Below, piece by piece: positions 7,896 through 20,018 of a DNA stretch of 64,000 nt; position 1 is the stretch's first letter, and the number at the start of each line of letters is the position of its first letter. The translations under genes were made by a program, and so were the position numbers. The notes under the pieces were generated by a model. That model did not search any database. It was not told the origin of the DNA and saw only the letters and a program-made list of their open reading frames with translations. This DNA comes from a bacterium (lineage in GTDB: Bacteria > Pseudomonadota > Gammaproteobacteria > Pseudomonadales > Moraxellaceae), in contig JAQSDB010000001.1 in NCBI GenBank assembly GCA_029945725.1, positions 62,001 to 126,000 on the forward strand, in the 5' to 3' direction.

Positions 7896-8828
7896 ATGCC
7901 CGTGCAATCAGGAATACTGCCCCAGCCTTCAGTACACGCCCGTTTTCTGGTGCTGCGCTGCAGGGCGGCTGATGAGGCGCCAGCCCGTGCCCGGCTGAAA
8001 AAGTGTCTGCAACATTTTGATGCTACCCGCCGTCGTTTGCAGATGCAGTATGCCGATGCCAGCCTGTTCTCGGTGGCGGGTTTCGGGCCAGCGTTATGGC
8101 AGCAGCTGGCAGGAACCATGCCGGGCGGGCTGCGCGAGCTGCAGCCGCTTGCTGGCACGTTTGCGATGCCGGCGTCGGGTGGTGATCTCCTTCTGCACAT
8201 TCACGGTGATCGTTACGATCTTTGTTTTGCACTGGCGCAATCCTTCATGGCGGAGAGCGGAGATCTTTTTGAGGTGCTGGAAGAGGTCGCCGGTTTTCGT
8301 TATCTCGACAGCCGCGATCTCACGGGTTTTATCGACGGCACGGAAAACCCGCAGGAGTCACAAGGGCGTGCAGAAGCGGCCTTGCTGGGTGAAGAGGCGG
8401 GTGTGTATGCGCATGGCAGTTTTGTGTTTGCCCAGCGCTATGTGCATCAACTGGACAAGTGGCAGCGCCTCAGTGTCGATACCCAGGAGCAGGTGATCGG
8501 CCGGACCAAACTGGAAAGTATTGAGCTGGACGATGCCGTCAAGCCTGCGAATGCACACATTGCCCGCACCGTGATTGAAGAAGATGGCGAAGAGCTTGAG
8601 ATCGTGCGCCACAGCATGCCTTACGGGGAAAGCGCGGGTGAGCAGGGTCTGTTTTTTATTGCCTATACCAAAGAGCTCTCGATTATTGATCGCATGCTGG
8701 CGCGCATGTTTGGTACGAGCGGGGATGGTAGCAGTGACCGCCTGCTCAATTTTGTGACCCCGGTGGGTGGCGCTTATTTCTTTGCGCCGCCGGTGGCCCT
8801 GTGGAATGCCATAGTGGCTGAGGATTGA
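7896..8828 (+). CDS. Dyp-type heme peroxidase
   Basis: This 310-residue protein carries the DyP signature GFIDGTENP at about 144-152, with the distal catalytic Asp at 147. A later RHSMPYG supplies the likely proximal heme His near residue 239, and the C-terminal part has FIAYTKELSIIDRMLARMFG. Length and lack of a signal peptide suggest a cytoplasmic YfeX-like enzyme. No encapsulin gene or C-terminal cargo peptide is evident nearby. GGGAG upstream of the ATG at 7896 supports this start over an in-frame TTG at 7875. It is convergent with the Nramp gene, 26 bp away. Confidence 0.9.
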   Translation: MPVQSGILPQPSVHARFLVLRCRAADEAPARARLKKCLQHFDATRRRLQMQYADASLFSVAGFGPALWQQLAGTMPGGLRELQPLAGTFAMPASGGDLLLHIHGDRYDLCFALAQSFMAESGDLFEVLEEVAGFRYLDSRDLTGFIDGTENPQESQGRAEAALLGEEAGVYAHGSFVFAQRYVHQLDKWQRLSVDTQEQVIGRTKLESIELDDAVKPANAHIARTVIEEDGEELEIVRHSMPYGESAGEQGLFFIAYTKELSIIDRMLARMFGTSGDGSSDRLLNFVTPVGGAYFFAPPVALWNAIVAED

Positions 8829-8854
8829 CGCGCTATCGCTTGTGTTGCCATGCC

Positions 8855-10132
8855 CTAGCGGATCAGGAACATGGCGAGAACGGCAGCAGCCATCATCAGT
8901 GTTGCCAGCCAGCCCAGAATCCTCAGTCTGGTTGAAACGACAAACTGCCCCATGATTTCCGGGCGAACTGCCATCAGCATCATCACGACCATGATGGGTA
9001 CCGAGATGACGCCGTTGATGACGGCGCTCCAGTAAAGCGCCTTGATGGCATCAATCGAGGTAAATCCGAGTGCAACCCCGATCAGCGTCGAGATGGCAAT
9101 GATGCCGTAGAACCGCTTCGCCTCCATGGGCGCGCGCTCCAGACTGCTTTTCCACTGGAAGGTGCCCGCCATGGCGTAGGCCGACGATGCGGCCAGTACC
9201 GGAATGGCCAGCAATCCGGTGCCAATGATGCCAACGCTGAACAATATAAACGCAAAGTCGCCGCCAATCGGACGCAACGCGGCGGCTGCTTGCGCGGATG
9301 TCTGGATGTCGGTGATTCCGTGCAGGTTGAGCGTGACGGCCGTGGTCAGAATAATGAAGAAGGCCACCAGATTGGAAAAGCCCATGCCGAGATAGGTATC
9401 AATCCGGATGCGATCCAGATTTGTTTTCGCCTGACCGGGGGCATTTATCAGGGGCCGTGATTGTGGGTCGGCGTGCAGCTCTTCAACTTCCTGCGAGGCC
9501 TGCCAGAAGAACAGGTAGGGGCTGATCGTGGTGCCGAACACCGCCACGACAGTGGTGATGTATTCAGGCTTCCAGGACAACTGCGGCGTCAGCGTTTTCA
9601 TCAGCACCTGTGACCAGGGAATATGCACGACAAACGCAGTGGCGACATAGGCCAGCAACGCCAGCGTGAGCCACTTCAGTATACGGACATAGCGCCGGTA
9701 AGGAATGAATACCTGCAGCAGCAGCGAAGCCAGACCGAACACAACGGCGTAGATCTGTGCCGGGCCGCCGACAATCAGTTTCAATGCCTCGCCCATGGCA
9801 GAAACATCGGCGGCGATATTGATGGTGTTGGCAATCAGCAACAGTCCAACCACGGCATACAGCAGCCATGCCGGGTAGTGCCTTCGAATATTGGTCGCCA
9901 GTCCGTGGCCGCTCACCCTGCCGATCCTGGCACTGACTACCTGGATGCCCACCATCAGCGGGTAAGTCAGCAGCACCGTCCACAACATGTTGAAACCGAA
10001 CTGTGCGCCGGCCTGCGAGTAGGTGGCAATCCCGCTGGGATCATCATCCGCAGCACCGGTAATGAGCCCCGGGCCGAGCTTTTTGAGCCACGATGTTTTC
10101 TGGTTTTCAGGAATGGGTTTCACGGTGGACAT
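8855..10132 (-). CDS. Nramp-family metal ion transporter with divergent binding motifs
   Basis: This 425-residue integral membrane protein has about eleven hydrophobic segments and starts with LKKLGPGLITGAADDDPSG, aligned with helix 1 of Nramp proteins. The canonical metal-binding DPGN is DPSG here. The helix-6 region reads TTISPYLFFWQASQEVEE, without the Met-Pro-His triad of MntH-type transporters. This points to one of the Nramp-related subgroups with altered metal selectivity rather than classical Mn/Fe uptake. The ATG at 10132 aligns with the family start but has no strong ribosome site; an upstream ATG at 10171 would add 13 residues. Confidence 0.83.
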   Translation of the reverse strand: MSTVKPIPENQKTSWLKKLGPGLITGAADDDPSGIATYSQAGAQFGFNMLWTVLLTYPLMVGIQVVSARIGRVSGHGLATNIRRHYPAWLLYAVVGLLLIANTINIAADVSAMGEALKLIVGGPAQIYAVVFGLASLLLQVFIPYRRYVRILKWLTLALLAYVATAFVVHIPWSQVLMKTLTPQLSWKPEYITTVVAVFGTTISPYLFFWQASQEVEELHADPQSRPLINAPGQAKTNLDRIRIDTYLGMGFSNLVAFFIILTTAVTLNLHGITDIQTSAQAAAALRPIGGDFAFILFSVGIIGTGLLAIPVLAASSAYAMAGTFQWKSSLERAPMEAKRFYGIIAISTLIGVALGFTSIDAIKALYWSAVINGVISVPIMVVMMLMAVRPEIMGQFVVSTRLRILGWLATLMMAAAVLAMFLIR

Positions 10133-10555
10133 AATTTTAGGTTTACTTGTGGCTGACCATAACATAGGCATCGTGGATCATGATGTAGTACGGGCCTGGT
10201 GATGGCAGAGGGGCGTAGAGCGGATTAGCGGCATGGCCTGCATCACGTCATGCTTTTTAAGGCTATGCGCCGGCCTTGTCGGTTCGTTAGCCCACATGGA
10301 AAACCGCAGGCGCCGGGCAGTGAAAAAATCCTGATTTTTTCCGCCAGTGATTCTGGATGGCGTGCGCGCCTGCAAAGACCCGCACGGAGCAGCGGCCGCA
10401 ATTTATATTGGAGCCGGGTGTAATGCCGGTTTTTTTCAATCGGGTGCCGGATTTATTTTCGCCAGTGCGCCAGTGCGCCAGTGCCGGCGAACATAAATCC
10501 AGTGATGCTGTGCACGGTTACCGGTGTGACGACATGCCTGCCGTTGCCGGCAGGA
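10133..10555. other. Long leader/intergenic region upstream of the Nramp-like gene, with an 8-bp tandem repeat
   Basis: No gene is supported here. An 8-bp unit GCCAGTGC is repeated three times without gaps at 10461-10484. On the minus strand an A/T-rich hairpin-like segment lies around 10320-10341. I looked for a Mn-type (yybP-ykoY) or Mg-type riboswitch core for the Nramp gene and could not recognise one. Confidence 0.4.
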
Positions 10556-11215
10556 TCAGCCTCTTATGCCAGTGCCGGCGTTGCGGCTTTTGGCCGGCTT
10601 GCAGTCCTTGTCCCCCGGCGTGCAGTCAAGCGTCTTGCGCAGGGCTTTTTTGGCCATATTGACCGGGTTGGTCGCAGCAGCCGGTTCTACCGAGTCCACC
10701 TTGCACTGGGTGATTTTACCGGCGGCCGTGCACAGGCATTTGCCTGGGCGATTGCCGTTTTGCCCCGCCATGGCGGTGGCGCGCTGGCAGGCCTCCCTGG
10801 CAGTGGGTGCGGTGGCGCTGCTGGTCATCACCACGGTGTTGCCCGGTGCGGATTTCGATGGCATGCAGGCATAGCCGCCCTTGTCGTTGGTGAACCTGTA
10901 GGAGGCGTAATTGCCGTAGCAGGCGCCCAGGGTGATATTCGCACCGGGTGGCAGCGCCGCCGGATTGTTTTCCACGGCATCGGGTTGCAACAGCGTATCC
11001 CTGCGGTAAAACGGCTGCGAACCGCATTTGCCGTCCTGCAGGTCAGGATCGCTGGAGTCATGGCACCAGAACACGGCAATCGGCCGGTCGCAGGTATTCG
11101 TCAGCGTCGTTGCGCCCTCCACGGTATTGCGCTGAACGCAATCGGTGGCATCTTCCGCGAGTGCCGGGCGTGAGCAGCAAAGCAGCAGGAGCAGGGAGGT
11201 CAGCAGATGGCGCAT
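10556..11215 (-). CDS. Exported cysteine-rich protein of unknown function
   Basis: The 219-residue product has a signal peptide ending at ALA-ED and at least ten cysteines in the mature part. They include DCVQ, NTCDRP, FWCHDS, GKCGS, GACYGN, GYACMP, CLCTAA, QCKVD and DCTPGDKDCKP. The spacing suggests a disulphide-rented, periplasmic or surface domain, with a basic tail after residue 190. I do not recognise the family. It is the last gene of the minus-strand run of exported proteins from 16.0 kb, 76 bp after the coiled-coil gene, and may therefore act with them. The ATG at 11215 fits the signal peptide; longer frames upstream are not signal-like. Confidence 0.65.
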   Translation of the reverse strand: MRHLLTSLLLLLCCSRPALAEDATDCVQRNTVEGATTLTNTCDRPIAVFWCHDSSDPDLQDGKCGSQPFYRRDTLLQPDAVENNPAALPPGANITLGACYGNYASYRFTNDKGGYACMPSKSAPGNTVVMTSSATAPTAREACQRATAMAGQNGNRPGKCLCTAAGKITQCKVDSVEPAAATNPVNMAKKALRKTLDCTPGDKDCKPAKSRNAGTGIRG

Positions 11216-11291
11216 GATTATTCTCGGCAGTGATGAGTCAGAGAGCTTGTTCATTCTGTAAGAGCTGAGCGGACGGCACCCGCCGCTTTTT

Positions 11292-12254
11292 TCAATACGG
11301 ATACGGGCAATAGCGGCACTGGCTTTTCCCGCCCACGGCATCGAGGAGACTGCGCAGGGTACGGCAATTGGCGCGCCCTTCCTGATCGTGATCCGTGCTT
11401 CCTGTTGCGCGATGCAGGCAGGCATCAAAGGCCGCTATCTTGCAGTACTGGTCTGTCTGCGGGTCATCGTCGGGGCCGTCGTAGCTGCTGCCACAGGCCA
11501 TGGTCGCTGCCAGCTGGCTATCAAGCACCTTGTCACCGGTGGCGGGCAGCGCTTCGTTGCGAAGAGATGGCGTGCTCTGGCCTGCAAGTGTGGTGGAGGG
11601 GAATTGGCTGGTGGCTGCAGGCGTCGCAGGCATTGACGGCGCCGTATAGGCCGAACGCGGTGGCGGATTTCTTGAGGCCGCAGCGGCGGACAGCAGTCGC
11701 TGGTTTTCCTGCTCCTGGCGCTGGCCGGCCGCCTGCAGGTTTTGCCAGTTGCGTTGTGCGGCGGCGTCACTTGCCATCTTCATGGCCTGTTGTTCCTGCA
11801 TCTTCCCGGCGAGGATTGAACCAAACATGACAAGCTGGCTCGCTGTACTTGGCTGGGCATCTGCCTCTGCCTGGCGTTGTGCCGCCTCCGCACGTGCCTG
11901 CTCTTCCGCTATCCGGCGCTGCTCTGCGATACGGCGGTGTTCGTCTTCTGCCACACGCTGGCGCTCTGCCAGCAGGGACTGCCGGATTGAGCCCAGGGCT
12001 CTCTTGTCCTGCGAGCTGCCGGCCGATCTGGCGGCGTCGGCAATCTTTTTTTCGGCGCAGTCAAAGGCATGTGCACGAATGCAGGCATTTGCCTTGTCGG
12101 CCAGATCCATGAAATCAAGGTGATCCAGCTGGTCCAGTTGATCCAGCTGGTCCAGCATCTTTTTCTGTTGCTCGGCTCCTGCCTGGACGGCGAGCGGCAT
12201 CAATGCCAGCAAGCCGGCTAAAACAGTGAGCCATAACCATTTATGGATATTCAT
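11292..12254 (-). CDS. Exported coiled-coil protein with LDQ repeats, unknown function
   Basis: This 320-residue protein has a signal peptide (about residues 1-25), then a tandem LDQ tract encoded by a 9-bp DNA repeat. A helical DUF-like stretch with two Cys (ACIRAHAFDC) follows, then an Ala/Arg/Glu/Gln-rich coiled coil at about 95-135, a Pro/Ser/Thr-rich linker, and a C-terminal Cys-containing domain with YCKIAAFDACLHRATG and a final CRYCPYPY. The layout of coiled coil plus flexible linker plus small disulphide domain suggests a periplasmic spacer or adaptor. It lies between the DUF4105 gene (36 bp) and the Cys-rich gene. The family is not recognised. Confidence 0.65.
   Translation of the reverse strand: MNIHKWLWLTVLAGLLALMPLAVQAGAEQQKKMLDQLDQLDQLDHLDFMDLADKANACIRAHAFDCAEKKIADAARSAGSSQDKRALGSIRQSLLAERQRVAEDEHRRIAEQRRIAEEQARAEAAQRQAEADAQPSTASQLVMFGSILAGKMQEQQAMKMASDAAAQRNWQNLQAAGQRQEQENQRLLSAAAASRNPPPRSAYTAPSMPATPAATSQFPSTTLAGQSTPSLRNEALPATGDKVLDSQLAATMACGSSYDGPDDDPQTDQYCKIAAFDACLHRATGSTDHDQEGRANCRTLRSLLDAVGGKSQCRYCPYPY
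12122..12157 (-). repeat. 9-bp tandem repeat encoding the LDQ tract
   Basis: Four consecutive 9-bp units alternate GATCCAGCT and GGTCCAGTT-like copies, encoding Leu-Asp-Gln triplets just after the signal peptide of the coiled-coil protein. The 16-base core of the double unit recurs exactly at 12122-12137 and 12140-12155. Its multiple-of-three length means copy-number change would lengthen or shorten the protein without a frameshift. Confidence 0.8.
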
Positions 12255-12290
12255 CGCGGTCCTCTTTTATGCACGCGGAAAATTAACGGA

Positions 12291-13979
12291 TCACATTTTT
12301 TTCAACAAGTTAATGTTTTCGATGGTTTCCGAAAAATACGCTGACTCAGCGTTCAGGTGCTGCCACGGCAAGGATGCCGTATCACTTATGCCGGCGATGG
12401 CTTCAGTCAGCAATTTTTTACTTTGTGCGGACTGACAGTGTGATGCTTGCGCGGAGGTTTCGGGAATGCCGGTTTTTTCCGGAATGCCATCCAGTCTTTG
12501 CAGGGGGCTGGTGAATTGCCTGATCGGAGCCAGCAGGCAGTCATCGAATACCCGGGCATGTTCGGCATCCAGCCGGGCGTGAATGCGGTCTGCCCTTGCC
12601 AGGAAGTCCTGTTGTTCAAGGTATTTCGCCCCTTCCTGCATCAGGATTCGCTCGCTGCGCAAAAGCGCATATTCTTCGAGCATTAATTGCGCCTCGCGCA
12701 AATGCCGGTCCTCCGCAAGGCGCGTGACAAAGCGTGTGTCTTCATGGCGATTCTGCCGCCTTGCTGCAGGGGTGATGTGCAAATAGGTATCCAGGTCGAC
12801 GAACGCCGGTTGCTGCATGGCGGCCCGGACCTCGATCAAGGCCTTGTCGTAGAATTCCCGGGTGCTGGAAAAAAAATAGCCATCATGTTCGGCGGCATCC
12901 TGCGGAGACAGCTTGCTGCCGTCGGCCAGCGGGCCGGCCTTTATCGCGTCGAAGAGGCTGTCAGGGCGCAGGTAGCGCCCCTTTCCCTGTGTGCTCATGG
13001 CATATTCAGGCCATGTCGCCTGCAGGGCCTGCTGCATCATTGTTGCGCAGTTGTGGGTAAAGAAGCGGTAGTCGCCGGTGTAGCGCCAGTGTATGTCTGA
13101 AAGCTCGCGCACCATCTGCTGCCGTTGCGCATCGTCGAGCTGCAAGGGCAGTGAGTAGACCTCGCGAAATTCGCCAATGGCATATTGCTCATAGACATCC
13201 ATGAAGCGGTTGGCAAACAGATAGGCCCTGTAATCGCCCTTGAGAGCCTTCAGAGTATCCAGCGAGAACTCGTCAATCTGTGCCTGGAATCCCAGCACAA
13301 TATGCTCGAACAGATTGGCATTGCAGGCTTCTTCGGAGGTCTTTCCTTCCGGGCACACCACCAGCCGCAGGGCGACATGACCAAAGCGTGATGCCATGCT
13401 GCCGCTCTTGCTCGCAAACAGCAGATGAATGGATTTGACCCGTGCCGGATCAAGCCAGACGACATTCGGATTTTCATAGCGGGTAAGAAGTGAAAAAGGC
13501 ACGGGTGCCTGACATGGCGTGGGCGCAAGGTCTGCGCCGTAGCGCTGCCGGAAATAGCGGGCATAAACGGGCTGGCGACAAGTGAAGCCGGATTGCGTCA
13601 GATAGTCTGCCAGGGTTTGGGCATAGGGCTGCTGCCGTTTCCGGCTTGTGCCGATGACGACATCATGCAGGCGTTCAAATTCGGCGTCGGGCAACAGGGT
13701 TTTGTTTTGCGTGTGCGTCAATACATCGATCAGGGTCGCGCGGACATCAGGAGCTTCGGCCTCCTGTGGTGCCTCAGCCGGGGCAGCGTCCTGCAGGCGC
13801 ACCGTCCCAGCCTGCAGGATGTTCTGGCGCAGCGCGGCCGGCGCCTCCTGAAGCACGGCCTGCACCCGCTGCCAGTGGCGCACAGGAATCGGCGCTGCCC
13901 CTCCTGATGTGACCGGACGGGGCGTTGTTGCGCAGCCGGCCAGAAATGCTGCGATCAGGAGGGCGGCAAAACGGATCAT
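12291..13979 (-). CDS. DUF4105-domain lipoprotein
   Basis: The 562-residue product begins with a lipoprotein signal peptide and lipobox LAGC (Cys15). After a variable N-terminal part it contains the DUF4105 core: LLFASKSGSMASRFGHVALRL near the middle and FFTHNCATMM further on, with conserved His and Cys that suggest a papain-like or NlpC-like fold. DUF4105 proteins are mostly predicted envelope proteins of unknown activity. A long helical C-terminal region with RLAEDRHLREAQLMLEEY follows. Its ATG overlaps the stop of the upstream PEGA gene by four bases (ATGA), so the two are coupled. Membrane sorting to the inner or outer leaflet is not decided. Confidence 0.82.
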   Translation of the reverse strand: MIRFAALLIAAFLAGCATTPRPVTSGGAAPIPVRHWQRVQAVLQEAPAALRQNILQAGTVRLQDAAPAEAPQEAEAPDVRATLIDVLTHTQNKTLLPDAEFERLHDVVIGTSRKRQQPYAQTLADYLTQSGFTCRQPVYARYFRQRYGADLAPTPCQAPVPFSLLTRYENPNVVWLDPARVKSIHLLFASKSGSMASRFGHVALRLVVCPEGKTSEEACNANLFEHIVLGFQAQIDEFSLDTLKALKGDYRAYLFANRFMDVYEQYAIGEFREVYSLPLQLDDAQRQQMVRELSDIHWRYTGDYRFFTHNCATMMQQALQATWPEYAMSTQGKGRYLRPDSLFDAIKAGPLADGSKLSPQDAAEHDGYFFSSTREFYDKALIEVRAAMQQPAFVDLDTYLHITPAARRQNRHEDTRFVTRLAEDRHLREAQLMLEEYALLRSERILMQEGAKYLEQQDFLARADRIHARLDAEHARVFDDCLLAPIRQFTSPLQRLDGIPEKTGIPETSAQASHCQSAQSKKLLTEAIAGISDTASLPWQHLNAESAYFSETIENINLLKKM

Positions 13980-14944
13980 TTACCGGCGGCAAATGCAGCG
14001 GCGTCAGTTGCCTGGGCGGCGGTCTTCTGCGGTGCCGAGACCCGTGCAATCAGGGATTCCGGTTTGCCCCAGGCGGACGGGCGAATCGCGGCCTCGTTCT
14101 TTATGGTGGCAACCTGCGTGGATTTCACGGGCAGGGAGATCAGGTCGGTCACCATGCCTGAAATCGACGAGGGAACGCCGGTAGAGAGGATGCAGATGAC
14201 GTTGTTAGCGCCGCAGCCAGCGCCATTGGCCATTTTGCTGGTGTACTCGTCATACCGGATGCTGTCGATTCTGCTGTTTTTTGCCTGGACTTTTTCTTGT
14301 GCCAGCTTTTCTTGCCGGGCAACGATGATTTTATCGCGCCATGCTTTTGCTTGCGCGGCATCCTTGTCTACGCCGGTTCCGGTTTCAAAGCGCGTTGCCA
14401 TGGATTCCATTGCACTGATGTCGCCAGCACTTGCCTTGATGTTTTCTGCGTAGGCATCAAGCACTTGCTGTTTTTCAGCGGCAGCGGCTAGCTTGCCGCG
14501 CCAGAGCCGGGCTTTTGCCGGGTCTTTTTTCAGGCCGGTTCCGGTGTCGTAGTAGGTTACTACCTTCTTCATGGCTTCCACGTCGCCGGCCTCGGCGGCG
14601 AGCAATTGCTTGCTGGCCTCGGCTGCTTTCAGTTTGAGCCCGCCTTCGGCCGTTAATTGCGGCGCAGACAGGATGACCTCCACGCGCTGGGGAACGCCCT
14701 CAATCACGGTCAGCTGTTTTTCGAAGAGCTGTTCGTAATCGCCGGCTGTTTTTCGCGCCAGCAAGCGTACGGTCCCCGCTTCCACGGGGGCATCCACGGG
14801 GCAGCTTCCGACCGACCGGCCGTTGATATAGACCTCGGCGCCAGTATTCTGGTCATCACATTTGACGCGGACGAAGCTGCCGGCAGCAGCTGAAAAAGAC
14901 ACGACCATTGCGGCCAGTCCGCAGACGTAAGCGGTTTTTTTCAT
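13976..14944 (-). CDS. Exported PEGA-domain protein with Sel1-like repeats (second tandem copy)
   Basis: The 322-residue product has a signal peptide ending at SAAAG, then a PEGA domain (about 22-90) beginning SFVRVKCDDQNTGAEVYING with the small carbohydrate/peptidoglycan-associated beta fold. Two Sel1-like units follow, recognisable by YYDTGTGLKKDPAKARLWR and RFETGTGVDKDAAQAKAWR. The C-terminal part has a hydrophobic GMVTDLISLPV segment and SAWGKPESLIARV. It is clearly homologous to the upstream neighbour at 15075-16010 and differs mainly in the last third. GGAGG precedes the ATG at 14944. Its stop overlaps the DUF4105 start. Function is unknown; envelope scaffold is an inference. Confidence 0.8.
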   Translation of the reverse strand: MKKTAYVCGLAAMVVSFSAAAGSFVRVKCDDQNTGAEVYINGRSVGSCPVDAPVEAGTVRLLARKTAGDYEQLFEKQLTVIEGVPQRVEVILSAPQLTAEGGLKLKAAEASKQLLAAEAGDVEAMKKVVTYYDTGTGLKKDPAKARLWRGKLAAAAEKQQVLDAYAENIKASAGDISAMESMATRFETGTGVDKDAAQAKAWRDKIIVARQEKLAQEKVQAKNSRIDSIRYDEYTSKMANGAGCGANNVICILSTGVPSSISGMVTDLISLPVKSTQVATIKNEAAIRPSAWGKPESLIARVSAPQKTAAQATDAAAFAAGK

Positions 14945-14994
14945 TGCATCCCTCCAGGAAGTTAAACAGGAATCCGAAACGGAAAACAAACATC

Positions 14995-15032
14995 CGGCCG
15001 GAATGGTCCTTTGCGCACGGCCATTCCGGCCG
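14995..15032. other. Perfect 12-bp stem-loop between the tandem PEGA genes
   Basis: CGGCCGGAATGG (14995-15006) and its exact complement (15021-15032) can form a 12-bp stem with a 14-base loop in the 130-bp gap between the two paralogues. It lacks a clean T-run on the minus strand, so a processing or mRNA-stability element is as likely as an attenuator. CATCCGGC at 14991 can alternatively pair with GCCGGATG at 15046-15053. Confidence 0.55.
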
Positions 15033-15074
15033 AAGAAAAAGGCTTGCCGGATGTCACCGGCAGGCCAGAAGTCT

Positions 15075-16010
15075 TTAATTATTGCGTTGCCCTGCCTCAC
15101 CTTGCCCTGCTGCCCGGGCGATCATGGATTCAGGGTTTCCCCATCGGGATGGCCGGGTCGCCGCCTGCGCGTTTATCTTTTGCATTTCTGTCAGGTCGGA
15201 CGGCAATTCGGTTATGCCCTTGATGGTGGAAAAGGGCAGGGCGAGCCAGCTTATGCTGGAGAATCCCACCAGGTTTTTTGCGCTTTTATCGCTTGCAGGT
15301 ATCTGCATGAAATCCCGCAAATCCCTGAAGGGGGCTGCCGCTGCCAGTCGGGCCTTTTTGTCGGCTACTTTCTTTTCGCGCGTTGCCACTTCGGCTTTTT
15401 CGCGCCATGCAAGGGCTTGCGCGGAATCTTTGGCGACCCCCATGCCAGAGTCATAGCGCGCCGCCATTTCCTGCATTGCCGCAATGTCTCCAGCCATGGC
15501 CCTGGCCTTGCTGGCCTCCGCGCTGCGCACCTGTTCCTGTGCGGCAGTGGCCTCGATTTTCTCGCGCCAGATCCGGGCCTTTGCGGCATCCTGCTTCACG
15601 CCCAGTCCTGTTTCGTAATAGCCGGCAATTTTCTTCATGGCGGCGGTATCGCCGGCCTCTGCCGCCTGCAGCTGCTTGCCGGCTTCGACCGCTTCCTGCC
15701 GGAGCCTGCCGGCGCTGGTTAATTGTGGTGCGGACAGGATGACTTCCACGCGCTGGGGAACGCCCTCTGTCACGGTCAGCTGTTTTTCGAAAAGCTGTTC
15801 ATAGTCGCCGGCTGTTTTTCGTGCCTGCAAGCGGACGGTTCCTGCTTCCACGGCGGCATCCACGGGGCAGGCTCCGACGGACCGGCCGTTGATGGAGATT
15901 TCAGCGCCCGTATTCTGGTCATCACACTTGATGCGCACGAAGCTGCCGGCAGTGGCCGAAAAAGACAGGGCCATTGCCACCAGTCCTGCGCTGTAAATGA
16001 CTTTTTTCAT
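15075..16010 (-). CDS. Exported PEGA-domain protein with Sel1-like repeats (first tandem copy)
   Basis: This 311-residue protein has the same layout as its downstream paralogue: signal peptide, PEGA domain starting SFVRIKCDDQNTGAEISING, and two Sel1-like units (YYETGLGVKQDAAKARIWR and RYDSGMGVAKDSAQALAWR). The C-terminal part contains SRWGNPESMIARA, matching the paralogue's motif. GGGGGAG upstream supports the ATG at 16010. It heads the run of five exported-protein genes reading down to 10556. The tandem arrangement indicates local duplication followed by divergence; a role in envelope assembly is inferred only from domains and company. Confidence 0.8.
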   Translation of the reverse strand: MKKVIYSAGLVAMALSFSATAGSFVRIKCDDQNTGAEISINGRSVGACPVDAAVEAGTVRLQARKTAGDYEQLFEKQLTVTEGVPQRVEVILSAPQLTSAGRLRQEAVEAGKQLQAAEAGDTAAMKKIAGYYETGLGVKQDAAKARIWREKIEATAAQEQVRSAEASKARAMAGDIAAMQEMAARYDSGMGVAKDSAQALAWREKAEVATREKKVADKKARLAAAAPFRDLRDFMQIPASDKSAKNLVGFSSISWLALPFSTIKGITELPSDLTEMQKINAQAATRPSRWGNPESMIARAAGQGEAGQRNN

Positions 16011-16200
16011 TGCTCCCCCTGCGATGTCGTTGCGCCGGCTCTCATCGCCCCTGAGGACGGCAGCCGGAAAGTTTCCATCATTGTTTTTTATGAAAGTTTT
16101 ATATCCGTGTGGCAACGGCCTCTAGCGGCGTGCCATCAAGAAATCCTGTTGGTGTTTTACCCCAGGACGGCGGCGTCTGGCTATCGTGCGATCGCCAGAA

Positions 16201-17400
16201 TCAGGATTTTATAAACACCTTCCCCGCCAGCCACATGGCTACGATGGTCATGGTCATGGCGCCGTAACCGACGATGTCATAATTCAGCAAATGTCCTTCG
16301 GCATCCTGAGTAAGGATCAGCGTGGGCAGAAAGGCAGCCGCGCTGGCAGCCAGCTGTTGCAGGGCGGCATTCATGCTGAGAAAGCGCCCGCGCAGCCCGG
16401 TCGTGCTGGCGGCGGTAATCAGGGCGAGGGCGGGAATCAGTCGTCCGGAAATAAACACCATGAAAAAAGTGGTGGTGAGCAGAACCCATGGCAGGGGCAG
16501 CGCAGGCAGATGCGTTATGGCAAACAGGGGCAGCAGGGAAATGGCGGCGAGAATGTGCAGGGTGCGTGCCTTGCCGAAGCGGTCGGAAAGGCGGCCAATC
16601 AGCGGCGCGGTAAACAGCGTGGCAAGGCCGCCGCAGAAATAAATCAGGGCCAGTTGTGATTCGGTCAGGCCGACGTTGTGCACCATATACGGGCTGATAA
16701 ACGGGATTACGCTGAATCCCGCCAGCATGAGTGCCGCAATCAGGGCAAAGGCACGCCAGTGATTGCCGACCCGGAACACGGCCTGCAAGGTGTCTTTCAT
16801 GGCGACGCGGCTTTTGTCCTGCGCGGGAATGGACGGCAGCGTGCGCAGGGCCAGCAGGCCCAGCACCAGCCCTGCCGCTGCCACGAAAATAAAAGGGGTG
16901 CGCCAGCTGAAATGTGTGGCGAGGAAAACCCCGAGGGGAACACCGGCCACCGCCGCAAGGGAAAAGGCAGTCATGACACGTCCGGTGGCGGCACCGCGGC
17001 GTTCTTCGGGAATACAGTCACCAAGAAAGGCCAGTATGTTGGCTCCCACTACGCCCCCGAACATGCCGGCCAGCAATCGCGCGACCAGCAGGCTGTGAAA
17101 GTCCCAGGCGAAGCCGCAGGCCAGTGTAGCAAGCACGAAACCGGAGAAAACACCGAGCAGCATGCGGCGCCGGTCAAAGCGGTCAATGATGAAGGCGCAG
17201 GCAAAGCCGGCGAGACCCGCACTCAGCGTATAGGCCGCGACCAGCAGGCCGAACTGTCCCGGCGTGATGTGCAGCAGGCGCATGAGCTGCGGCCCCAGTG
17301 GCATCAGGATCATGAAATCGACGATGTGACAGAACTGGATGCCGGCAAGCAGGCGTACCAGGTTTTTTTCGGCAGCAGGTGTGAGTATCAGTGCAGACAT
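16201..17400 (-). CDS. MFS transporter (drug/sugar efflux type)
   Basis: This 399-residue protein has twelve predicted membrane helices. The loop-2/3 motif reads FIIDRFDRRRMLLG, close to the MFS A-motif, and the second-half equivalent reads LIGRLSDRFGKARTL. Helix 5 contains the antiporter-like PLGVFLATHFSWRTPF segment found in AraJ/YdhP-type exporters. The substrate cannot be inferred. The gene is divergent from nasT, 120 bp away, and convergent or unlinked with the envelope operon to its left, so it may be a stand-alone unit. Confidence 0.85.
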   Translation of the reverse strand: MSALILTPAAEKNLVRLLAGIQFCHIVDFMILMPLGPQLMRLLHITPGQFGLLVAAYTLSAGLAGFACAFIIDRFDRRRMLLGVFSGFVLATLACGFAWDFHSLLVARLLAGMFGGVVGANILAFLGDCIPEERRGAATGRVMTAFSLAAVAGVPLGVFLATHFSWRTPFIFVAAAGLVLGLLALRTLPSIPAQDKSRVAMKDTLQAVFRVGNHWRAFALIAALMLAGFSVIPFISPYMVHNVGLTESQLALIYFCGGLATLFTAPLIGRLSDRFGKARTLHILAAISLLPLFAITHLPALPLPWVLLTTTFFMVFISGRLIPALALITAASTTGLRGRFLSMNAALQQLAASAAAFLPTLILTQDAEGHLLNYDIVGYGAMTMTIVAMWLAGKVFIKS

Positions 17401-17520
17401 GGTGTATCCATTGCGTGAGGAGCGACGCTAGCAGCCGGCACGATTGAATAACAGGGCGGCATCATGAATGTGGCACAGGGATTGCTGTGTCCGTGTCATG
17501 CAGTTCATGGTGTACAGGTA

Positions 17521-18096
17521 ATGCTCAAGATTTTGCTGGTCAACGATACCAATAAACAGGTCGGCCGCCTGAGGGCCTCCCTGATTCAGGCCGGCTTTGA
17601 TGTGGTCGAAGAAGTGTCCTCCGCTTTCATGATTCCGCGCCGGGTGGCCAGCTTGCAGCCGGATCTGGTGATCATTGATACCGAGTCGCCCAGCCGTGAT
17701 GTGCTGGAACAGATCGTCATGGTGAGCCAGGACGAACCGCGCCCGATTGTCATGGTCAGTGCTGACGGCGCACCCACCGCCATTCGTGCCGCCATCAAGG
17801 CCGGGGTGTCGGCCTATGTGGTGGAAGACATTGATGTGGCCAAGCTGGAGTCCGTACTGGCCGTGGCCCAGGCCCGGTTCGAGGCGGATCAGGCACTCAA
17901 GCTGCAGGTCAGGGTGGCAGAAGGCAAGCTGAGTGAACGCAAGACGGTGGAGCGGGCCAAGGGCTTGCTGATGCAGTTGCGCCAGTTGAACGAGGCGGAG
18001 GCCTATAACGCCATGCGCAAAATGGCCATGGACCGGAATATCCGTATTGCCGAAGTGGCCGACAAACTGCTCTCGATGAATGATTTGCTGACCTGA
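17521..18096 (+). CDS. nasT: NasT-like ANTAR-domain response regulator (nitrate transcription antiterminator)
   Basis: This 191-residue protein has an N-terminal receiver-like domain (LKILLVNDT, LVIIDTESPSRD) and a C-terminal ANTAR RNA-binding domain with KTVERAKGLLMQLRQLNEAEAYNAM. NasT binds twin hexaloop hairpins in nitrate-assimilation leaders and prevents termination; in known systems the nitrate sensor NasS holds it inactive. The ATG at 17521, after ACAGGTA, gives the family start; an upstream ATG at 17464 adds 19 unlikely residues. No nasS is adjacent here. The leader it should act on lies directly downstream (18353-18521), in front of nrtA. Confidence 0.9.
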   Translation: MLKILLVNDTNKQVGRLRASLIQAGFDVVEEVSSAFMIPRRVASLQPDLVIIDTESPSRDVLEQIVMVSQDEPRPIVMVSADGAPTAIRAAIKAGVSAYVVEDIDVAKLESVLAVAQARFEADQALKLQVRVAEGKLSERKTVERAKGLLMQLRQLNEAEAYNAMRKMAMDRNIRIAEVADKLLSMNDLLT

Positions 18097-18123
18097 TCTT
18101 TTTTTGCGTATCACTCTCATGCA

Positions 18124-18149
18124 CGGCGCCTCCTGGCGCCGTTTTTTTT
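18124..18149 (+). terminator. Intrinsic terminator of nasT
   Basis: A 7-bp GC-only stem, CGGCGCC/GGCGCCG with a TCCT loop, is followed by eight T. It lies 28 bp after the nasT stop and separates nasT from the nrt transcription unit. Confidence 0.9.
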
Positions 18150-18201
18150 GCGCCATTACGGAGGGGCTGAGGGCATGACGGCGTCCGTCCCGGTGCAGGA
18201 G

Positions 18202-18261
18202 TGCACCATGGCACCGGGCAGGCAGCCCGTTTTTTTGTGCACCATTCCCTGCTTTGGCGCA
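18202..18261 (+). promoter_or_regulatory. NtrC-like enhancer half-sites upstream of the nrt promoter
   Basis: TGCACCA occurs at 18202-18208 and again at 18238-18244, and a near-complementary TGGCGCA lies at 18255-18261. The NtrC consensus half-site is TGCACC. The cluster sits about 90-150 bp before the predicted start of transcription, the usual place for NtrC enhancers. Spacing between half-sites is not canonical, so binding is an inference. Confidence 0.5.
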
Positions 18262-18324
18262 AAAAGCGCACCGTAATAGTGAATGTCTGTTGTTTGGCCC
18301 TGAATTTGCGGGCTTCGCAAAAGC

Positions 18325-18340
18325 TGGCACAGGGGTTGCT
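18325..18340 (+). promoter_or_regulatory. Sigma-54 promoter of the nitrate-uptake operon
   Basis: TGGCAC-AGGGG-TTGCT matches the sigma-54 consensus TGGCAC-N5-TTGCW, with the invariant GG and GC separated by exactly 10 bases. The predicted transcript would start near 18351, just at the foot of the first ANTAR hairpin. This ties the operon to nitrogen limitation through NtrC-type activation. Confidence 0.88.
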
Positions 18341-18352
18341 ATATCACTGCTG

Positions 18353-18385
18353 TGAACTCATGACTCCAATGCTGGAGTGAGTTCA
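18353..18385 (+). promoter_or_regulatory. ANTAR-type RNA hairpin P1 in the nrt leader
   Basis: TGAACTC (18353-18359) pairs with GAGTTCA (18379-18385). An ATG bulge follows on the 5' side, and an inner ACTCC/GGAGT stem closes a six-base loop AATGCT. The loop has A at position 1 and G at position 4, the recognition rule of ANTAR proteins. It begins at the predicted first bases of the transcript. Confidence 0.8.
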
Positions 18386-18475
18386 AGCTTCTCCTGTGTC
18401 GTGCATGGATACCTTCGGGTCGGGAGACCTGTTTGGGTGTCGGTCCTGGTGGCAACACCGGTAAAAGTTGTAGTT

Positions 18476-18491
18476 AGGACAATGGCGTCCT
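18476..18491 (+). promoter_or_regulatory. ANTAR-type RNA hairpin P2 (antiterminator)
   Basis: AGGAC/GTCCT closes the hexaloop AATGGC, again with A at position 1 and G at position 4. Its loop and 3' arm are the 5' arm of the terminator at 18481-18521, so the two structures cannot coexist. This is the known ANTAR mechanism: NasT binding to P1/P2 would block termination. Confidence 0.82.
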
Positions 18492-18521
18492 GCGGGTAAA
18501 ACCGCAGACGCCATTTTTTTT
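18481..18521 (+). terminator. Regulated terminator in the nrt leader
   Basis: AATGGCGTC (18481-18489) pairs with GACGCCATT (18507-18515), and TGCGG with CCGCA, around a GTAAAA loop. The run of eight T ends at 18521. It lies 62 bp before the nrtA start and overlaps hairpin P2, so it is a conditional terminator relieved by NasT. Confidence 0.92.
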
Positions 18522-18583
18522 GGCCTGGATTCTGCACAAGCACGGTAAATGCCGTGTACAGATTTCCTGCAAAGAGGTGCGTT

Positions 18584-19882
18584 ATGGCGGATCGTGATGA
18601 GCTGAGCAGCATTGCCCCCTCTGTGGATGACAGCAGTGTTGTCGATACCGGGCGTCGTCAGTTTTTGAAAGGTTCCATGCTGGCTGCCGGCATGGCGGGT
18701 GTGATGGGAGGGTTGTCGATGCAAATGTCCGCGTCCGCTTGGGCGGCTGGTTCTGATAAACCCGAGAAGCCGGAGGTGAATGTCGGTTTCATTCCCCTGA
18801 CGGATTGTGCCCCGGTGGTGATTGCCTCGGTGCTGGGTTTTGACAAGAAATACGGCATCAAGATCAATGTCAGCAAGGAGGCCTCATGGGCGGGCGTGCG
18901 CGACAAGCTCATCAATGGCGAACTGGATGCGGCGCATGTGCTTTATGGTCTGGTGTATGGCGTGCACCTCGGTATTGGTGGCCCCAGGAAAGACATGTCG
19001 GTGCTGATGTCGCTGAACCAGAACGGTCAGGCCATCACGCTCTCCAACCAGCTCAAGGAAAAAGGCGTGACGGATGGCAAGTCGCTGAAGCGCCTGATTG
19101 ATACCGACAAGCGCGAATACACCTTTGCCCAGACCTTTCCTACCGGTACCCACGCCATGTGGCTGTATTACTGGCTGGCCGCCAATGGCATTGACCCCAT
19201 GAAGGATGTGAAAACCATTGTGGTGCCGCCACCCCAGATGGTCGCCAACATGCGTGTCGGCAACATGGATGGTTATTGCGTGGGCGAACCCTGGGGCGCG
19301 CGCGCCATTTTCGACAATATCGGTTTCACGGCCACCACCACCCAGGCGATCTGGGCGGATCATCCGGAAAAGGTACTGGGTTGTACGGCCGAGTTTGTGA
19401 AGCAGAATCCGAACACCACACGTGCCCTCATCATGGCGGTGCTGGATGCCGCACGCTATATCGATGACGTGAAAAACCGGCCGCAGGTAGCCAAGCTGAT
19501 TTCCGGAAAATCCTACGTCAATGCGCCGGAAGAAGTGATCGAACAACGCTTCCTCGGCAACTACGACAACGGTATCGGCAAGCGCTGGAAGGACGAGCAT
19601 CCGATGCAGTTCTTTGATGGCGGCAAGGTCAACTTTCCCTACTACTCCGACGGCATGTGGTTCCTTACCCAGCACAAACGCTGGGGCATGCTGAAAACCG
19701 ATCCGGATTATCTGGCGGTGGCGAAATCCATCAACCAGGTGGATCTCTACAAGCAGGCTGCCACACAACTCAAGGTGCCGTTGCCGGCTTCGCCGATGCG
19801 CTCCAGCACCTTGATGGATGGCAAGGTCTGGAATGGCTCCGACCCCAAGGCCTACGCGGCGAGTTTTGCCATCCGGTCCTGA
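18584..19882 (+). CDS. nrtA: Nitrate ABC transporter substrate-binding protein (NrtA-like)
   Basis: The 432-residue product has a twin-arginine signal (RRQFLKG at 24-30, then a hydrophobic AAGMAGVMGG segment). The mature part starts with VNVGFIPLTDCAPVVIA, the usual opening of NrtA/CmpA-type binding proteins. VPPPQMVANMRVGNMDGYCVGEPWGARA is the familiar central signature region of nitrate binders. The Tat signal argues for a secreted binding protein rather than the cytoplasmic sensor NasS. GAGGT precedes the ATG at 18584. It is the first gene of the sigma-54/NasT-controlled operon nrtA-nrtB-nrtD. Bicarbonate or cyanate binding is possible but less likely given nasT. Confidence 0.9.
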   Translation: MADRDELSSIAPSVDDSSVVDTGRRQFLKGSMLAAGMAGVMGGLSMQMSASAWAAGSDKPEKPEVNVGFIPLTDCAPVVIASVLGFDKKYGIKINVSKEASWAGVRDKLINGELDAAHVLYGLVYGVHLGIGGPRKDMSVLMSLNQNGQAITLSNQLKEKGVTDGKSLKRLIDTDKREYTFAQTFPTGTHAMWLYYWLAANGIDPMKDVKTIVVPPPQMVANMRVGNMDGYCVGEPWGARAIFDNIGFTATTTQAIWADHPEKVLGCTAEFVKQNPNTTRALIMAVLDAARYIDDVKNRPQVAKLISGKSYVNAPEEVIEQRFLGNYDNGIGKRWKDEHPMQFFDGGKVNFPYYSDGMWFLTQHKRWGMLKTDPDYLAVAKSINQVDLYKQAATQLKVPLPASPMRSSTLMDGKVWNGSDPKAYAASFAIRS

Positions 19883-19892
19883 CCGGCGCGCC

Positions 19893-19970
19893 TGCTGGCG
19901 TGATTTTCCGCCAGCACAGGGCTGACCTCAAACAGTAATGCATAACACCCGCTGCTCCACCCGGAGCAGC
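19893..19970 (+). other. Two intercistronic hairpins between nrtA and nrtB
   Basis: TGCTGGCG/CGCCAGCA (19893-19900 with 19909-19916) and GCTGCTCC/GGAGCAGC (19951-19958 with 19963-19970) each form 8-bp stems. No T-run follows. Such elements after a binding-protein gene usually stabilise its mRNA and let it be made in excess over the membrane components. Confidence 0.6.
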
Positions 19971-20018
19971 GCGGTTCCTTGCTGCCTGAAAACAGCAGAA
20001 CAATGTCGGGAGAAGGTC

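Follow-up and report, generated by a model that had tools for sequence, protein, structure and literature searches.

Pfam family PF13387, formerly DUF4105, today bears the name 'Lnb N-terminal periplasmic domain' (Lnb_N), and 2024 work cited in PMC12994826 identified DUF4105 with Lnb, a lipoprotein N-acyltransferase of Bacteroides. The available parts of PMC12994826, to which all our statements from that paper refer, place DUF4105 together with YiiX among the permuted NlpC/P60 enzymes, a group tied to lipid substrates, and make it the sister clade of Tox-Act1, a Salmonella effector of the type VI secretion system (T6SS) that has phospholipase activity (section 12) and whose toxicity requires a conserved His and Cys; the NlpC/P60 superfamily also includes peptidoglycan peptidases. 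In this report, we examine an Lnb_N gene and its neighbours in a 64,000-nucleotide stretch of a Moraxellaceae genome (assembly GCA_029945725.1, contig JAQSDB010000001.1, positions 62,001 to 126,000; hereafter the window). We find that four of these genes, g1 to g4, form a rare conserved cassette whose members travel together and which has moved between unrelated bacteria; that they constitute a functional unit is very probable. Such fixed partners would give one branch of the Lnb_N family, which gained an enzyme activity only recently (the 2024 work cited in PMC12994826), a route to its substrate.

The initial annotation of the locus had described an operon of five exported proteins, none of known function. 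All five open reading frames were found on the minus strand where it had placed them, as were the 4-bp ATGA overlap between g2 and g3 and the 36-bp gap between g3 and g4; the other gaps are of 130 bp (g1-g2) and 76 bp (g4-g5). The statement on function is outdated for g3, whose PF13387 domain places it, under the present name Lnb_N, in one family with the lipoprotein N-acyltransferase of Bacteroides. Export signals are visible in g1 to g5 by eye and by hydropathy, their N-termini reaching a best 12-residue mean of 2.1 to 2.5, against 0.1 to 1.6 in four neighbouring genes, and g3 carries the lipobox LAGC. The features are the following:

g1: 15075..16010, minus strand; exported protein with PEGA and two Sel1-like repeats, copy 1
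g2: 13976..14944, minus strand; exported protein with PEGA and two Sel1-like repeats, copy 2, with a conserved C-terminal segment around 'PESLIAR'
g2/g3 ATGA: 13976..13979, minus strand; 4-bp overlap of the g2 stop with the g3 start
g3: 12291..13979, minus strand; Lnb_N (DUF4105) lipoprotein, 562 amino acids (aa), no second hydrophobic segment
Lnb_N domain match in g3: 13002..13451, minus strand; residues 177-326
His201 codon of g3: 13377..13379, minus strand; invariant, putative catalytic His
Cys311 codon of g3: 13047..13049, minus strand; invariant, putative nucleophile, modelled at the N-terminal end of a helix
g4: 11292..12254, minus strand; exported coiled-coil stalk protein
g4 constant stem: 11910..12254, minus strand; signal peptide, LDQLDQLDQLDxxDF and a C..F.CA segment
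g4 exchangeable Cys-rich tip: 11295..11564, minus strand; last 90 residues, type C, common to congener G001
g5: 10556..11215, minus strand; exported Cys-rich protein with 14 Cys

Related loci were collected with Lnb_N alone as bait, 80 named loci being listed of 575 matches, from genome samples that were drawn, not complete, and with match thresholds that differed between samples. Among the matches listed, all eight loci of one group (L052-L059) have a PEGA/Sel1-type neighbour and seven of them a coiled-coil neighbour as well, L056 having the PEGA/Sel1-type partner alone, whereas the 70 loci with Lnb_N of the other type (L060-L129) have neither; the PEGA and coiled-coil models were built solely from the window's genus, and the result of 0 in 70 was repeated with wider models. 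Within short flanks, neither partner was found at 17 same-order Lnb_N loci (L131-L147), at six from the phylum sample (L152-L157) or at the second copies of G799 and G802 (L166, L167). Each of four loci found later in the class of G803 has a PEGA/Sel1 or caspase/Sel1 partner, and three of them have the coiled coil. Over all the loci collected, a PEGA/Sel1- or caspase/Sel1-type gene adjoins 19 of the 20 cassette-type Lnb_N loci and a coiled-coil gene 17; the twentieth locus, that of G001, is cut within the enzyme gene by a contig end, and a PEGA gene is found at the end of another contig. A branch with 100/99 support separates the 20 cassette-type rows from seven other-type rows, in a tree with eight rows of odd letter make-up and one very long outgroup row.

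The internal arrangement is conserved as well. The usual order is PEGA/Sel1, Lnb_N and coiled coil, in Pseudomonas, Marinobacter and other genomes, L058 differing in that the coiled-coil gene precedes PEGA. The 4-bp overlap of the PEGA gene with the enzyme gene recurs in 9 of 17 readable junctions, window included (those of L031, L058 and L177 could not be read), and G1022 has twin PEGA genes and junctions of -4 and 36 bp, as in the window. DUF4105 and PEGA-Sel1 genes do recur together elsewhere, then, the twin included, and the single co-conserved unit that had been proposed for five genes holds for g1 to g4 but not for g5. No description of the cassette was found in the literature searched, which was open-licence only, nor any paper there on 'PEGA domain' with Sel1 and the periplasm.

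The cassette is rare. Counting the baits, a cassette-type enzyme was present in five genomes out of 390 sampled in the order (17 further matches being of the other type), in 1 of 398 genomes of a phylum sample, that of the window itself (22 further matches of the other type), in 3 of 348 Pseudomonas-genus genomes, all three already known, in five out of 277 in the class of G803, namely the bait and four newly found genomes, and in one out of 257 in the class of G804, where it was confined to the bait. In the window's genus a strong match to g3 occurs in four of nine genomes, its own included, several of the others being incomplete. The window's enzyme is nearest to that of G1022 (59% identity over 549 columns), which belongs to the class of a Geobacteraceae genome, and then to those of G982 and L056, ahead of three congeners. 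The approximately unbiased (AU) test rejects a clade of the window with its three congeners (p 2e-45), as well as window and G001 as one Lnb_N clade (p 1.8e-26). Horizontal transfer is indicated, since the gene tree is at odds with taxonomy, and the sequences point to horizontal inheritance of the g1-g4 cassette. A cassette carried by plasmids or viruses is unsupported: tblastn of g3 against plasmids gave no match, and none of 11 pattern matches on viral contigs is related to it. A first genome scan with the single g3 protein gave 14 pattern matches, none of them confirmed.

The protein g4, for which Pfam gives no match, consists of a constant stem and an exchangeable Cys-rich tip. All 17 coiled-coil proteins compared are related over their first 115 residues, whereas the last 115 fall at E 0.01 into six groups: A with seven members, B with five, C with two, and three singletons; these E-values refer to the 17-sequence set, without composition correction, and the stems include low-complexity sequence. 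The assignment of G409 to group B is weak (E 1e-7 and 1e-3; it scores 56, where the best shuffle reached 60). Exchange is seen in the window itself: its stem is nearest to that of G1022 (z 33.4, 54% identity), yet the tips of the two are unrelated (z 0.8), and its tip is related to that of G001, a congener (z 17.7, with five Cys shared where the two align; stem z 7.4), despite distant stems and enzymes. Sister enzymes, too, are accompanied by different tips (Delta and G859, tip z -1.0; Marinobacter and G409, tip z 0.0). The type B tip has one plasmid match (E 2e-5): it also ends a Shewanella protein (L179:4249-6321) of 690 aa with a lipobox-like start and a low-complexity linker, and no stem, PEGA or Lnb_N match was found in the 12 kb around it. 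Because tips switch between stems and enzymes and type B occurs without the stem, we regard the tip as a mobile module. The type A tip had no match on plasmids or phage records, and type C none on plasmids.

The enzyme g3 matches PF13387 at 3.8e-19 (69.3 bits; cut-off 22.2). All 22 aligned relatives, and 13 of 13 rows in a further comparison, keep His201 and Cys311 without exception, and the genome's other Lnb_N protein also has the pair; the order, His before Cys, is that of permuted NlpC/P60 enzymes. The nearest outside relatives seen are the DUF7844-Lnb_N proteins of Pseudomonas, Xanthomonadaceae and others (11 rows, 21-26% identity), which have the same catalytic residues but differ by an N-terminal DUF7844, found in all three proteins tested, and by the lack of a PEGA or coiled-coil neighbour, as seen in 70 of 70 other-type loci. 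In the AlphaFold2 model of g3 (mean pLDDT 87.7, pTM 0.85), Cys311 begins a helix and His201 a strand. The two best structural matches that cover the catalytic region were both obtained with VIA: E. coli YiiX (2if6), the top match (Z 8.5, rmsd 3.6, 138 residues over model positions 180-375), and human CLN5 (6r99) at rank 8 (Z 5.2, over 111-349), ranks 2 to 7 matching mainly the helical C-terminal part. With 13 and 5% identity, respectively, the two would have only the fold in common with g3, CLN5 weakly so; the modelled fold appears to resemble that of YiiX, a permuted NlpC/P60 fold. CLN5 is reported to be a BMP synthase in the available part of PMC13015511, and no open-licence literature linking CLN5, NlpC and transacylase was found. 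A search of PDB sequences with a 22-row profile gave two chance matches only, and Foldseek against viral models had no match at 0.001. Of 19 cassette enzymes, 11 have a lipobox that fits a strict pattern, and those of L056, G1022, G409 and G859 have a lipobox-like start by eye. The second Lnb_N protein of the window's genome (L001, G000:C1:206015-206527 with flanks) has 632 aa and lies beside a small exported protein, which we take to resemble DUF3015.

The PEGA/Sel1 partners vary. In Pfam, PEGA is slightly above its cut-off in g2 (21.5 versus 20.8 bits) and slightly below in g1 (20.4), and the Sel1 scores of the two proteins, 22.3 and 23.1 bits, fall short of the cut-off of 30.7. The model of g2 has a beta domain and Sel1-like helices, and Foldseek matches it to Sel1 structures (best E 9.3e-5). 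Within the C-terminal 70 residues of the PEGA proteins, a hydrophobic stretch containing Pro and Asp is conserved, with 'NPDSMIAR' or a similar sequence after it; this segment, modelled at low confidence, is a possible docking segment. Three congeners and P. reidholzensis have a PEGA protein that lacks the Sel1 repeats. The copy g1 is closest to copy 1 of G1022 and g2 to copy 2 (46% each), in a tree that does not resolve these branches. In two cassettes, those of L056 and G982, the position of PEGA in front of the same Sel1 part and C-terminal segment is taken by a caspase domain, which scores E 8e-39 and 3e-38 in the two L056 proteins and 9e-37 in one of the G982 proteins, the second of these being alike by eye; each of these cassettes has two such proteins and no coiled-coil gene. 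By eye, we take their His and Cys motifs to be those of caspases, and an L056 protein matches the PADLOC 'caspase' (6.5e-11). The usual place of the coiled-coil gene after the L056 cassette is occupied by a protein of at least 1805 aa that runs to the end of the locus (L056:8909-14323), with an ESPR signal, DUF4347, and Ig-like and cadherin-like domains.

Taken together, the best reading, to which we give an even chance, is an envelope module for acyl transfer or acyl hydrolysis (lipase) with a scaffold and an exchangeable arm. By analogy with its relatives, g3 probably performs acyl chemistry; it could equally well be true or false that the g4 tip sets specificity, and it is doubtful that g4 itself is the acyl acceptor. 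According to this scheme, g3 would be lipid-anchored in the envelope, the Ala after the lipobox Cys suggesting, as a guess, sorting to the outer membrane. Cys311 and His201 would take an acyl chain from a phospholipid, an action proposed because the relatives Lnb and Tox-Act1 act on lipids, and g3 would then hand the chain to one dedicated partner or release it. The PEGA-Sel1 proteins would keep the enzyme in a complex, and the g4 stalk would reach outward, its tip picking the target. Were the tip to decide the target, the cassette would offer bacteria a natural, modular means of directing acyl chemistry within their envelope.

Several observations weigh against this interpretation. The chemistry of the g3 subfamily is inferred from the family, and the YiiX match (Z 8.5) is barely above the best Z of 7 to 8 that is typical of models without a clear match; Foldseek with the g3 model gave no significant PDB match, the best being CLN5 at E 0.32. 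The lipid anchor is not universal, because four cassette enzymes (G007, G006, L058 and G1076) show no lipobox. The coiled-coil gene is absent from L056 and G982, and the contig of L051 is too short to tell. Tip types are largely inherited, with 7 label changes on the enzyme tree for a minimum of 6 and a shuffled mean of 10.9, 'Caspase' being entered as a seventh label in this count. Moreover, since the protein that type B ends in Shewanella is unrelated, tips need not be tied to the Lnb_N enzyme.

Of the other explanations, the one that fares best is a system of conflict with rival bacteria or phage, in which a lipid-damaging enzyme would be controlled or aimed by the PEGA/caspase-Sel1 proteins and the tips would track the target. 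The cassette would then be a horizontally spreading envelope effector of undescribed type, its lipid-anchored acyl enzyme regulated by a PEGA-/caspase-Sel1 protein and retargeted by disulphide-rich tips; we consider it unlikely in either wording. The cassette is indeed rare and scattered among the genomes sampled, its gene tree contradicts taxonomy, g4-type proteins join a constant stem to a variable C-terminal tip, caspase stands in for PEGA in L056 and G982, and the DUF4105 sister clade Tox-Act1 is a T6SS lipase toxin (PMC12994826). This rarity, with the transfer and the exchange of tips and heads, resembles conflict systems. Polymorphic toxin systems have a constant N-terminal part and interchangeable C-terminal modules as well (available part of PMC3482391). 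Unlike these, g4-type proteins have no known toxin domain, Pfam finding none in eight distinct coiled-coil proteins that cover all six tip groups, and no evident immunity gene, the genes downstream of the coiled-coil gene differing by eye without a recurrent candidate; the tips are small and Cys-rich. PADLOC, which covers known anti-phage defence, gave g1 and g2 no more than weak, partial matches to PtuA (E 4e-4 and 2e-3) and g3 to g5 none; type A, the sole tip tried, had no phage match, and no relative of the enzyme was found on viral contigs. As for Tox-Act1 and TseH, they belong like DUF4105 to permuted NlpC/P60 clades but are delivered by the T6SS, and no such cassette is reported for them in the available parts of PMC12994826. 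A conflict system of this kind would be unusual in acting outside the cytoplasm and in having PEGA swappable for caspase.

It is also improbable that g3 is a peptidase or amidase of the classical NlpC/P60 kind, or a binding protein, directed at peptidoglycan or at partner proteins. The peptidoglycan peptidases of the superfamily (PMC12994826) would be a precedent, and the caspase domains of two cassettes suggest proteolytic chemistry nearby, but in g3 His precedes Cys, DUF4105 lies in the permuted, lipid-linked group (PMC12994826), and YiiX, the top structural match, belongs to that permuted group.

We think it very unlikely that g3 is an ordinary second lipoprotein N-acyltransferase, that is, Lnb proper, with loosely associated neighbours. 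It does share with Bacteroides Lnb the domain family, the His and Cys pair and the exported location, but the Lnb_N match spans only about 150 of its 562 residues, and partner genes adjoin the cassette enzymes in the proportions given above (19 and 17 of 20). The window genome has an Lnt (TIGR00546, E 2.6e-94, above the curated cut-off), so g3 is unlikely to be a general lipoprotein N-acyltransferase. A membrane part is expected in Lnb after the periplasmic domain, as the Pfam name implies, whereas g3 has no hydrophobic segment past its signal, hydropathy after residue 35 peaking at 0.74 in a 19-residue window. Lipoproteins, moreover, are general among bacteria, and the cassette is rare. Finally, that the five genes lie together by chance, with coupling limited to g2 and g3, is hardly credible: the 130- and 76-bp gaps would allow it, but g1/g2-, g3- and g4-type genes recur in unrelated genomes with varied flanks, which disfavours chance adjacency for g1 to g4, although it may hold for g5.

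That fifth gene has no Pfam match, and it was rejected as a conserved cassette member, having no match in 57 other genomes, in the scanned loci outside its own genome, or on plasmids. It may be co-transcribed with the cassette, though outside the conserved set. A promoter consensus scan of positions 8000-20000 gave 3 promoter-like sites, fewer than shuffles (mean 4.6). G+C at third codon positions is 0.66 in g1-g4, 0.72-0.73 in five of six neighbours, 0.62 in the DyP gene and 0.76 in g5, a difference too small for us to use as evidence. In the window the cassette is flanked by an MFS transporter upstream and by an Nramp transporter and a DyP peroxidase downstream; the flanks of other cassettes differ by eye, an MFS-like gene lying also, by eye, beside that of G001. 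Flanks were mostly judged in this way, 14 flanking genes in all being searched against Pfam.

Among the neighbours of other cassettes, two belong to lipid transport: a YdbH-like protein directly downstream of the cassette of Marinobacter (L059:9580-11097) and an MlaD-domain protein about 2 kb upstream of that of P. reidholzensis CCOS 865 (L052:2399-4048). DUF2786/DUF7168 proteins are found near the cassette in two same-class genomes (L172:5208-5900 and L175:4170-4856). Two assembly titles call for comment. L070 (JAHREJ010000006.1), titled Bacillus subtilis SK7B5, has an Lnb_N gene of a type that is otherwise mostly gammaproteobacterial here, and the assembly is possibly contaminated or mislabelled. 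In L055 (JAIRVG010000056.1), a metagenome-assembled genome with the title Paucimonas, the stem and tip share about 70-75% identity with those of two Pseudomonas; the genome also holds a second Lnb_N frame, of 668 aa, like those of the same two Pseudomonas; its title may be wrong.

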